In this document: one piece after another, positions 33,771-37,425 of the stretch
Layout of the letters: each line of letters opens with the position of its first letter
Numbering within the stretch: position 1 is the first letter of the stretch
Source of the DNA: Candidatus Egerieousia equi
Lineage (GTDB): Bacteria > Bacteroidota > Bacteroidia > Bacteroidales > UBA932
Direction: 5' to 3'
DNA length: 40,125 nt
NCBI GenBank assembly: GCA_018065035.1
Contig: JAGHUC010000118.1
Span: 1 to 40,125, forward strand
Translations under genes and position numbers: made by a program
Notes under the pieces: generated by a model
The model's input: only the letters and a program-made list of their open reading frames with translations
What the model was told of the DNA's origin: nothing
The model's database searches: none

Positions 33771-33778
33771 TATCTTTG
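33771..33778 (+). promoter_or_regulatory. -7 element for the PUR-family gene
   Basis: TATCTTTG, 31 nt before ATG 33810. The upstream -33 site would fall at about 33747-33753, abutting the divergent nusB -7 element, so both promoters compete for the same 40 bp. Confidence 0.5.
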
Positions 33779-33809
33779 TTAAACTTTTAGAAAATTTAAC
33801 AAACTGACT

Positions 33810-34322: not shown

Positions 34323-35324
34323 ATGAAGACTACGATGGAAGAATTTGATTACAATTATGTGATAGCAGGACGCCCCGGATACTATCAGGCCGGCTACAAG
34401 GATATAATGGATCTGCCGCAGGTAAGCTGGCACAGCAGCCATTACAGCGGCTTCAAGACATTCTGGGAGAAGCAGGCCGTTCTCTGGAATTTCGCAAAGA
34501 TTCCCAACAGAATCATCAAGGTCCCGTTTGCCAGATACGTTTTTCCGCGTCTGTATCCCCACAATTTCTCCAACGGCAAACCATTGTGCTTCCTTTTCTT
34601 CGGCAACACTCACAAGGTTTACAGATCAAGCTACACGGATTATCTCAGAAAGACTTATCCCGGAGTCAGGCTCGTACTGTTTCTCCAGGACCTCATCTCA
34701 CGCCATTATTCATTCGACCTTGATGAGGCCCGCAGCAAGTTTGACCTCATAATAAGTTATGACCGCGGCGAGGCGCAGCGTGAAGGCCTGCTCTTCCACC
34801 CCACCCCTATGTCAAAGGTTGAAATCAATGACAATCCCGAGATTCCAAGCAGCGATGTATATTTCTGCGGTCACGCAAAATCAAGATACCATCAGGTGCA
34901 CGAAGTGTTCCAGCTCTGCACAAAGGCCGGCCTCAAATGCGATTTCAACATCCTTGGAATGCCGGTTCACGCAGGCCGCCTCAACGGAATAAGATACCTA
35001 TCCAAGCCTATATCATACACTGAGAACCTTGAGAGGATGTACAAGTCCAGATGTATTCTGGAAATAATGCAGGACGGCGCCGACGGCCACACCCCAAGGC
35101 TCTGGGAAAGCATCATATACGACAAGCACCTCATCACCAACAACAGCGCCATCAAGGACTCCCCTTTCTTCCACAGCGATGGCAATCACCTCCTTTCCTC
35201 CCTCACCCCTGAAGGGATCAAAGCCTGGATTGCCCGGCCGGTACGCTATCCGGAAGAACTAAAGGACAGCCTCTCACCCCGCCACCTCCTCCACTTCATA
35301 GACCAACAACTTTCCAGACGCTGA
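34323..35324 (+). CDS. Putative GT-B glycosyltransferase
   Basis: A 333-aa protein without a signal peptide or clear membrane segment. A Rossmann-like N-terminal half (KPLCFLFFGNTHKVYRSSY, VRLVLFLQDLISRHYSFDL, FDLIISYDRGEA) and a C-terminal half with SSDVYFCGHAKSRYHQV, FNILGMPV, then EIMQDGADGHTPRLWESI near residues 250-267. The latter resembles the E-x(n)-E donor-site motif of GT4/CgeB-like enzymes. The sugar and acceptor cannot be inferred. The gene is orphan: promoter upstream, no polysaccharide genes nearby. ATG 34323 is used; ATG 34335 is an alternative four codons in. Confidence 0.5.
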   Translation: MKTTMEEFDYNYVIAGRPGYYQAGYKDIMDLPQVSWHSSHYSGFKTFWEKQAVLWNFAKIPNRIIKVPFARYVFPRLYPHNFSNGKPLCFLFFGNTHKVYRSSYTDYLRKTYPGVRLVLFLQDLISRHYSFDLDEARSKFDLIISYDRGEAQREGLLFHPTPMSKVEINDNPEIPSSDVYFCGHAKSRYHQVHEVFQLCTKAGLKCDFNILGMPVHAGRLNGIRYLSKPISYTENLERMYKSRCILEIMQDGADGHTPRLWESIIYDKHLITNNSAIKDSPFFHSDGNHLLSSLTPEGIKAWIARPVRYPEELKDSLSPRHLLHFIDQQLSRR

Positions 35325-35339
35325 ATTTGACTTTCACAC

Positions 35340-35364
35340 GTTCTGTACGTATAGCATACAGAAC
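35340..35364. repeat. Operator-like inverted repeat upstream of the ECF sigma gene
   Basis: GTTCTGTA (35340-35347), 9-nt spacer, TACAGAAC (35357-35364): 8 perfect pairs ending 18 nt before the sigma start codon, in a 58-nt gap. No U-tract follows on either strand, so it is not a normal terminator. It could be a regulator site, part of an ECF-dependent promoter, or a 5' leader hairpin. No TAnnTTTG promoter is present in the gap. Confidence 0.6.
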
Positions 35365-35382
35365 AGAGATTGAATTTATCGG

Positions 35383-35931
35383 ATGGAAAAGGAGACCTTC
35401 ATAGAATTCACTGCCGGAAACCGGGAAGCCTTCAGACAAATTGTTCTGGAATTCCAGCGGCCGGTCTTCTCTTTTGCCCTCAAGACGCTGGCGGATGAAG
35501 ATGACGCCAAGGACATCACGCAGGAAACCTTCATAAGAATATGGAAGAATCATTGCAAATATGACCCAGAACGCAAGTTCATAACCTGGGCCATGTCAAT
35601 TGCATCACATTTATGCATTGATTATCTGCGTCACAAGGAGAAAGAGATTCCACTTCCTGAAGACATTGACTTTCTTGACAGCTGGATGAAATCATCCAGG
35701 GATGGGTACCTGGAACTTTCGAACAAGGAGTGGGTGTCAATAGTCAGAACACTGGCAAGCGGACTGGCACCCAAGCAAAGAATAATCTTCACACTGAGTT
35801 GTCTGGAGGATTATTCAAATGCTGAAATCACACAGCTCACAGGCTTCAATCCAATTCAGATAAAGAGCAATCTGTACGTAGCTAAACAACTTATAAGAAA
35901 TAAATTAAAACAGCTAGGTTATGAGCGATGA
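35383..35931 (+). CDS. ECF-type RNA polymerase sigma factor
   Basis: A 182-aa group IV sigma factor. Region 2 spans about residues 20-85, with FSFALKTLADEDDAKDITQETFIRIWKN as the core-binding helix and WAMSIASHLCIDYLRHKEK as the -10-recognising part. Region 4 (about 120-175) contains LAPKQRIIFTLSCLEDYSNAEITQLTGF and the recognition helix IQIKSNLYVAKQLIRNKLK. Regions 1 and 3 are absent, as in all ECFs. The next gene overlaps by 11 nt and is its probable anti-sigma factor. Autoregulation through the upstream inverted repeat is possible but unproven. Confidence 0.93.
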   Translation: MEKETFIEFTAGNREAFRQIVLEFQRPVFSFALKTLADEDDAKDITQETFIRIWKNHCKYDPERKFITWAMSIASHLCIDYLRHKEKEIPLPEDIDFLDSWMKSSRDGYLELSNKEWVSIVRTLASGLAPKQRIIFTLSCLEDYSNAEITQLTGFNPIQIKSNLYVAKQLIRNKLKQLGYER

Positions 35932-36307
35932 ACTTGACAGCATTTTGCACAGACTGAAAAGCACATCTGGAACTCCGGAATTGGAGGATGCCGAATCGTT
36001 CGCACAGAAAATTCTTGAATTAACGCAGGAAGATTCAGCACATCAGACTATCAGGCCGGGAAGCAGAATCAGATTCCGGATGGTAAGCATACTGAAAGCA
36101 AGCACTTATGCGGCAGCCATTCTGCTTGTGGCATTTTTCATTCGCCTGCGGACAGATACAAGTTGTATAAAGGCGGCAGACACTGACAATCCACGCCGAA
36201 CAATCATTGTTTCTGAAAAAAGAACTGACATAACAGTCAATGAACGTATGAAAAAGATTTCAACAGCCCTCCAGATTGCAAAACTTCAAAACAAAGAAAT
36301 ATTATGA
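35921..36307 (+). CDS. Probable anti-sigma factor, single-pass membrane protein
   Basis: 128 aa: an acidic helical cytoplasmic N-terminus (1-50), an Arg-rich border, one membrane helix at about 58-75, and a 50-residue outer tail. Position after an ECF gene with an 11-nt overlap is the main evidence for an anti-sigma role. There is no H-x3-C-x2-C zinc anti-sigma motif and no FecR domain, so it is not one of the common classes. The stop overlaps the next start as ATGA (36304-36307). Confidence 0.6.
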   Translation: MSDELDSILHRLKSTSGTPELEDAESFAQKILELTQEDSAHQTIRPGSRIRFRMVSILKASTYAAAILLVAFFIRLRTDTSCIKAADTDNPRRTIIVSEKRTDITVNERMKKISTALQIAKLQNKEIL

Positions 36308-37425
36308 AAACCAATATCCTTAGAATATCAACTTTGATTTCCTTGCTGATGTTCACATGTTCATGCAACTGCGATTTCAGCATGCTCACATCAGTGGATG
36401 AAAACGGAGGAATAACAAGAACTATCACATGTCAAGCCAGTAAGGAACTGCTCTGCGGCAAATGGAACAATAATGAAGTGGTGAACGGAAACACAAGTCC
36501 GGTGAAGCCTGGAGAAGAATGGAACACAGAATGGATGATCAAAGGAAGCAATGAGAAAATGCTATGGCCTGTTTCTGATCTGCAATATGACTCACTATGC
36601 AAGGCAATGAACCTGAAAACCCTCAAAGACACTGCTATCGTAATGATGAGCAGGCGCTTCGAGTCCGTTCAGGAAATGAACGACAAGTTTCACTTTGACA
36701 TAATTCCAATGAAAACCGAAGCGAATTTCAAAAAGAGCTTCAGATGGTTCTATACGGAATATTCATTCTCGGAGACTTTTCCAAAGCGGAATTTTCTCAT
36801 ACCGGCAAGCAGATACCTTACAGAAGATGAGCTGACTTTCTGGTGCACGGGAGAAAACGTGATTTCAGAGAATCTCAGTGGCTCGGAGCTGTTCGACAGC
36901 CTTTGCGATATAGCTGAAAAAGCCCGCAGATGGCTTACAGCCAACTGCTTTGAGGAATATTGCCAGTATTTGATTTCACACTACGACAGCATTGAAAATG
37001 CCTCTATCAGCAAAGAAGAATTCATAGCATCAAAGGATGATTTCGTAACAAAAGGAGCAGCATCTGTCGAAGAATCGTTGTTTGATGAAATGCATGAAAT
37101 ATTCAGGAAGGCACTGGTCGAATACTATGGTACCGGATTCAATGCGGATGCTTTCATAGATTGCCTTCCTGAAGAGTTCGAACTTGATTCGGAGATACTG
37201 GCTGCCTTCCAGAATTTCTCTTTCGCGTATGCCGTGAAGCTTCCGGGAACAGACATCGCGGATGTGCATCCTGCAAAACTCAATCTTGGAATGTGCTACT
37301 CAAAAGATTATTCTGTCAGTTACTCATCACGAAAAATCAATGCATGGGCATGGGGACTTACAGCTCTTTTGATAATAATTCTTTATATTTGGACTGATAA
37401 TTTAAAGAAAAGGCAGAACAGATGA
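36304..37425 (+). CDS. Unrecognised exported protein with C-terminal membrane anchor
   Basis: 373 aa with an N-terminal signal ending near FTCSC (a possible lipobox at C19 or C21), a long mixed alpha/beta extracytoplasmic part with several Cys (C22, C43, C51, C93, C173, C196), and one C-terminal membrane helix at 347-363 followed by KKRQNR. I do not recognise the family. ATGA overlaps on both sides tie it to the putative anti-sigma gene and to alkD, which suggests a sensor or accessory role in the sigma system. That role is inference. Confidence 0.7.
   Translation: MKTNILRISTLISLLMFTCSCNCDFSMLTSVDENGGITRTITCQASKELLCGKWNNNEVVNGNTSPVKPGEEWNTEWMIKGSNEKMLWPVSDLQYDSLCKAMNLKTLKDTAIVMMSRRFESVQEMNDKFHFDIIPMKTEANFKKSFRWFYTEYSFSETFPKRNFLIPASRYLTEDELTFWCTGENVISENLSGSELFDSLCDIAEKARRWLTANCFEEYCQYLISHYDSIENASISKEEFIASKDDFVTKGAASVEESLFDEMHEIFRKALVEYYGTGFNADAFIDCLPEEFELDSEILAAFQNFSFAYAVKLPGTDIADVHPAKLNLGMCYSKDYSVSYSSRKINAWAWGLTALLIIILYIWTDNLKKRQNR

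Follow-up and report, generated by a model that had tools for sequence, protein, structure and literature searches.

Here, comparative evidence is presented that the 58-nucleotide (nt) gap in front of a gene for an extracytoplasmic function (ECF) sigma factor of Candidatus Egerieousia equi, a member of the Bacteroidales, very probably holds an autoregulated ECF promoter. This promoter would drive the sigma gene together with the genes for a putative anti-sigma factor with one transmembrane (TM) helix and for a lipoprotein with a C-terminal TM helix. The gap is part of a 40,125-nt stretch of DNA (contig JAGHUC010000118.1 of assembly GCA_018065035.1; hereafter the window) and extends from the stop codon of a glycosyltransferase gene on the same strand, at 35324, to the ATG of the sigma gene at 35383. 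The predicted promoter has the form TTTGACTTT-N13-CGTATA, with the -35 element TTTGACTTT at 35326-35334 and the -10 element CGTATA at 35348-35353 of the + strand. It was missed by the initial annotation of this DNA, which had singled out an inverted repeat in the same gap and had suggested that it marks an operator or an autoregulated promoter. The promoter part of that suggestion is supported by a -35/-10 pair that is conserved among homologues. The operator part is not, as the repeat is neither conserved nor present in a second copy above control level.

The motif was derived by an ungapped Gibbs search of the upstream regions of 26 homologous sigma genes, with the window itself left out. 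These homologues were taken from the best 29 loci of the 79 other genomes with a match (L086, L088 and L090 were left out), and for L073 the counts for motif, synteny and covariation rest on a start codon located 15 nt further upstream than the first pick. Six runs on the real sequences reached 14.3-21.2 bits, as compared to 9.8-10.1 bits in four runs on shuffled letters, and gave the consensus TT(T/C)GACTTTT-N11-TCGTAT. When both strands of the window were scanned with the resulting matrix, one site stood out (35326-35356, 17.3 bits), and the runner-up scored 8.5 bits. CGTA is present in 24 of the 26 motif-building homologues. It is also present in the best-scoring site of every one of 18 test homologues outside the matrix, which were added by searching 20 and 71 genomes of two families and come from these two families only; in these the site ends 16-26 nt before the start codon and scores 6.6-33.4 bits. 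The control set, 29 other ECF genes of the genus, had a maximum of 9.8 bits and a mean of -5.9. Two conserved boxes at fixed spacing, as expected of an autoregulated ECF promoter, occur in 42 of all 44 homologues, 11 of which carry TTTGACTTT exactly as in the window. The alignment of upstream regions that the initial annotation had recommended returns a shared ECF-type -35/-10 pair and not a shared inverted repeat. Its statement that the gap lacks a housekeeping promoter is correct: the Bacteroidota element TAnnTTTG, placed at -7, has no match with one mismatch or fewer on the + strand of the gap, and the three best sites have two. Judged by the usual ECF spacing, transcription would presumably start at about 35358-35362. 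Such a promoter is the ordinary arrangement for ECF sigma genes, and its prediction here is well supported by comparison.

A further line of evidence links the promoter to the protein. The third base of the -35 element (35328) is C or T across 43 sequences, i.e., the window and 42 homologues, with L069 and L085, which lack CGTA, excluded. Residue 159 of the sigma factor is K in 14 of the 19 sequences with C at this position and in none of the 24 with T, where it is Q (16), S (7) or I (1). Residues 158-160 are the three best coupled to base 35328 among 179 protein columns. Among the 31 promoter columns, moreover, 35328 is the only one with all three of its best partners within residues 152-170, while every other column has at most one of its three best partners there. 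From known sigma structures, this stretch is likely the recognition helix of sigma region 4. Tracking of box bases by DNA-reading residues is accordingly seen for the pair 35328/159, and the other -35 columns are without such localisation.

The proposed mechanism is that the sigma factor itself would recognise TTTGACTTT-N13-CGTATA in the gap, with region 4 reading the -35 element and region 2 reading the -10 element. A membrane-bound anti-sigma factor encoded by the next open reading frame (ORF3), perhaps informed by the lipoprotein encoded by ORF4, would release the sigma factor, which would then raise transcription of its own operon.

Several observations count against this proposal. The homologues are at most 52% identical to the sigma factor of the window, so that the comparison of the repeat covers distant relatives only. 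Two of the 26 motif-building homologues (L069 and L085) are without CGTA, and the best control gene, at 9.8 bits, outscores two of the 18 test homologues (6.6 and 7.3 bits). The covariation was counted on related sequences, weighted for kinship with no tree correction, and when the coupling is totalled for five -35 columns, residue 159 comes just behind residue 5.

Few other sites resembling the promoter were found. A search of the own genome with TTGACTTT-N13-CGTATA returned one exact site, the one in the window, none with one mismatch and nine with two; totals in this search were below those of the reversed-pattern control (83+74 vs 170+159). In eight other genomes, the pattern TYGACTTT-N13-CGTAT had 12 exact matches, eight of which are sigma promoters, one per genome. 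These eight genomes were chosen for sigma promoters that fit the pattern, and therefore only the rarity of the other sites (four) is informative. The small number of sites is consistent with a sigma factor that would mainly drive its own operon, and weaker targets are possible. One exact match, in genome G293 (L128), lies away from the sigma operon, 31 nt upstream of the ATG with which a 348-amino-acid ORF starts, and may mark a second target.

The inverted repeat itself is as the initial annotation had described it. It occupies 35340-35364 of the + strand (GTTCTGTACGTATAGCATACAGAAC), is a perfect 8+8 repeat of the form GTTCTGTA-N9-TACAGAAC, and ends 18 nt before the ATG of the sigma gene. The left arm GTTCTGTA (35340-35347) makes up 8 of the 13 spacer bases of the promoter, at positions that carry little information in the motif, the loop contains most of the -10 element, and the right arm TACAGAAC (35357-35364) overlaps the probable transcription start. 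This geometry could be read as an operator confined to this lineage, on which a dimeric regulator would occupy both arms across the -10 element and block or modulate the sigma promoter. A perfect repeat around the -10 element is the place where a repressor would sit, and when the gap was shuffled 5000 times, such a repeat arose in only 18 cases, without correction for the choice of this gap among many. However, perfect 8+8 pairs with loops of 3-20 nt number 15 in the window (13 places, two of them counted twice), which is at the chance level of 13.2 +/- 4.7 obtained by identical counting in 40 dinucleotide shuffles. The pattern occurs once in the window, even with up to three mismatches allowed. 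The scan for further copies that had been recommended along with the annotation yielded none above control: in the 1.92-Mb own genome this is the sole place with fewer than three mismatches, and with up to three there are 14 places (this site counted) as compared to 11 for the reversed pattern.

Conservation of the repeat is likewise absent. In the register of the window, 0-4 of the 8 arm positions are complementary in the 26 homologues and 0-5 in the 18 additional ones, where about 2 of 8 are expected by chance. Shifting the arms by up to 4 nt, which was done for the first 26, gave a best value of 6/8 (L073). A separate repeat of 8-3-8 form is present in L085, for which the motif placement lacks CGTA and is not trusted. 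A conserved operator was rejected on these grounds, and because arm pairing is absent in 44 homologues, the repeat does not belong to what the sigma family has kept and is probably not the functional element. The initial annotation had tied its reading to conservation upstream of orthologues and to overlap with a region of transcription start; the first is contradicted by the 0-5 paired positions, and the second agrees with the position of the repeat over the predicted start region. We consider a lineage-specific operator unlikely. The repeat is probably a local accident laid across a conserved promoter, in which the left arm would fall by chance into the free spacer and the right arm into the free start region.

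Alternatively, the sigma gene could depend entirely on read-through or on some other sigma factor for its transcription, with the boxes belonging to a different ECF. The proximity of the upstream gene, which is on the same strand and ends just 58 nt before the sigma gene, would suit read-through. Yet the boxes accompany this sigma family in many genera, 28 of the 29 other ECF genes of the genus are without CGTA at their best-scoring site, and the one with CGTA scores 3.2 bits. The coupling of base 35328 to residue 159 also argues against a different ECF, and we regard this explanation as highly improbable. Hardly credible is an RNA hairpin, acting as terminator of the glycosyltransferase gene or as leader of the sigma mRNA: RNA across the repeat can fold an 8-bp stem, but its fold z-score is -0.8 with 38 of 200 shuffles equally good, no terminator-like site (a G+C-rich hairpin followed by a T run) is present in 35200-35500, no Rfam match was obtained in 35250-35500, and a transcript from the predicted start, which would lie inside the right arm, would be without the left arm and therefore could not form the hairpin. 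Elsewhere in the window, a nusB-like gene and a divergent DUF3276 gene are separated by 48 nt, which contain a 9+9 inverted repeat (TTTGTTAAA-N11-TTTAACAAA, 33775-33803).

The genes behind the predicted promoter are all on the + strand. The ECF sigma factor (35383-35931, 182 amino acids) contains regions 2 and 4, as recognised by the Pfam models Sigma70_r2 (1.6e-17) and Sigma70_r4_2 (1.6e-07). It is followed, with an overlap of 11 nt, by ORF3 (35921-36307, 128 amino acids), which has one TM helix and is likely an anti-sigma factor. An ORF follows the sigma gene in the ORF3 position at 24 of the 26 homologue loci; by hydropathy, 22 of these ORFs have one TM helix, that of L070 has none and that of L085 has two. 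Zinc-binding anti-sigma factors typically carry an H-x3-C-x2-C signature. This signature is found at the N terminus of four of the 24 ORFs (L074, L078, L079 and L083), three of which were scanned and gave two weak zf-HC2 matches (E 0.039 and 0.25, below cut-off) and one no match. ORF3 of the window has neither the signature nor zf-HC2 membership, its only Pfam hit being a sub-threshold match to Hpt. The anti-sigma role is considered likely because of the position of ORF3 and its signature-bearing relatives.

ORF4 (36304-37425, 373 amino acids) has a lipobox-like N terminus and a C-terminal TM helix and may be a signal-sensing partner. At 22 of the 26 homologue loci there is likewise a third ORF whose N terminus is lipobox-like on visual inspection, and in the six loci where the third ORF is complete it has a C-terminal TM helix, as in the window. 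ORF4 matched no Pfam or NCBIfam family above cut-off and six of its relatives had no NCBIfam match. Its single-sequence structure prediction had a mean predicted local distance difference test (pLDDT) score of 45.4 and was not used. A DNA alkylation repair gene (PF08713, 37422-38132) overlaps ORF4 by 4 nt and is, given this overlap, possibly co-transcribed with the sigma operon.

In the order, a sigma match (E <= 1e-17) occurs in 80 of 393 genomes and an ORF4 match in 25 of 393, the own genome included in both; the nearest sigma relative has approximately 52% identity, and in 20 of the 24 other genomes the ORF4 relative is adjoined by a sigma match on the same contig. Within the genus, none of the 38 other genomes has a close orthologue of the sigma gene (best match 28% identical, E 1e-15) or a match to ORF4 at E <= 1e-5. 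A scan of the named genome collection retrieved only two distant sigma relatives, L006 (28% identical) and L007 (23%). The block of sigma gene, ORF3 and ORF4 (35383-37425) was not found in the 38 other genomes of the genus or in five genomes of sister genera, a distribution that would reflect either recent gain or repeated loss. Two observations were made on other ECF genes of the genus. The first, which involves loci L170-L184 and L189, is that among 19 other genomes of the genus with the DNA alkylation gene, 11 have a different ECF sigma gene approximately 0.5-0.7 kb away from it; this sigma factor is 23-25% identical to that of the window, whose own sigma operon was not found in those genomes. 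The second is that six of the 29 other ECF genes (L009-L012, L015 and L036) share a different pair upstream: TTTAACCTTTTG, 11 letters of which are alike in most cases, and a box of the CATC/AATC type that is followed by TAAT or TATT. This pair looks like an autoregulated promoter belonging to a second ECF family.

The arrangement has parallels in known systems. Autoregulated ECF promoters, as described in PMC3817407, were found likewise, as motifs common to the regions upstream of sigma genes. There, too, the genes of a sigma factor and an anti-sigma factor (here putative) share an operon downstream of -35 and -10 boxes read by the sigma factor itself; they differ in that the boxes here are TTTGACTTT-N13-CGTATA. 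The best NCBIfam match of the sigma factor is the PG0214 / GFO_1088 family (NF058625), at 110.7 bits and under the cut-off of 130. In the Porphyromonas gingivalis operon PG_0214-PG_0217, a sigma gene is similarly followed by a putative anti-sigma gene, according to PMC10101095, but the third gene there encodes a DUF4252 protein, whereas its counterpart in the window encodes a protein that resembles a lipoprotein, has a C-terminal TM helix and matches no Pfam family. The Das/Dma (ECF21) systems of Bacteroides resemble the window in combining a Bacteroidota ECF sigma factor and a membrane anti-sigma factor in one operon, and loss of Dma2 raises its own operon (PMC13088901). Dma, as presented there, is one protein that reaches from the cytosol to the outer membrane and ends in a C-terminal beta-barrel, whereas ORF3, by length and hydropathy, is a protein of 128 amino acids with one predicted TM helix; unlike in Dma, the outer part would here need a separate protein, ORF4. 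Another Bacteroidota ECF with a published recognition sequence is EcfO of Bacteroides fragilis, which is named in PMC7366714. This transcriptome paper from 2020 states that at that time none of the ECFs of B. thetaiotaomicron had a known recognition motif; in a paper from 2025 (PMC12596196), two of them are connected with a non-canonical promoter. Judging by titles and the starts of abstracts, no published account of the promoter proposed here was found.

For an ECF family of Bacteroidales, the order to which the protein families and the promoter type of the window also point, the analysis supplies a specific promoter that can be tested. It also illustrates that a conspicuous palindrome can mask the true element, as the conserved boxes sit in plain-looking parts of the gap. 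As a tentative proposal, which we hold to be possible but doubtful in its entirety, the operon may constitute a little-described signalling unit of Bacteroidales, in which a sigma factor would have its own operon as the only strong target, a one-TM anti-sigma factor would act without the zinc signature of some relatives, a lipoprotein anchored at both ends would serve as sensor, and residue 159 would set base 35328. If this were true, promoter specificity in this sigma family would be predictable largely from one residue, residue 159.
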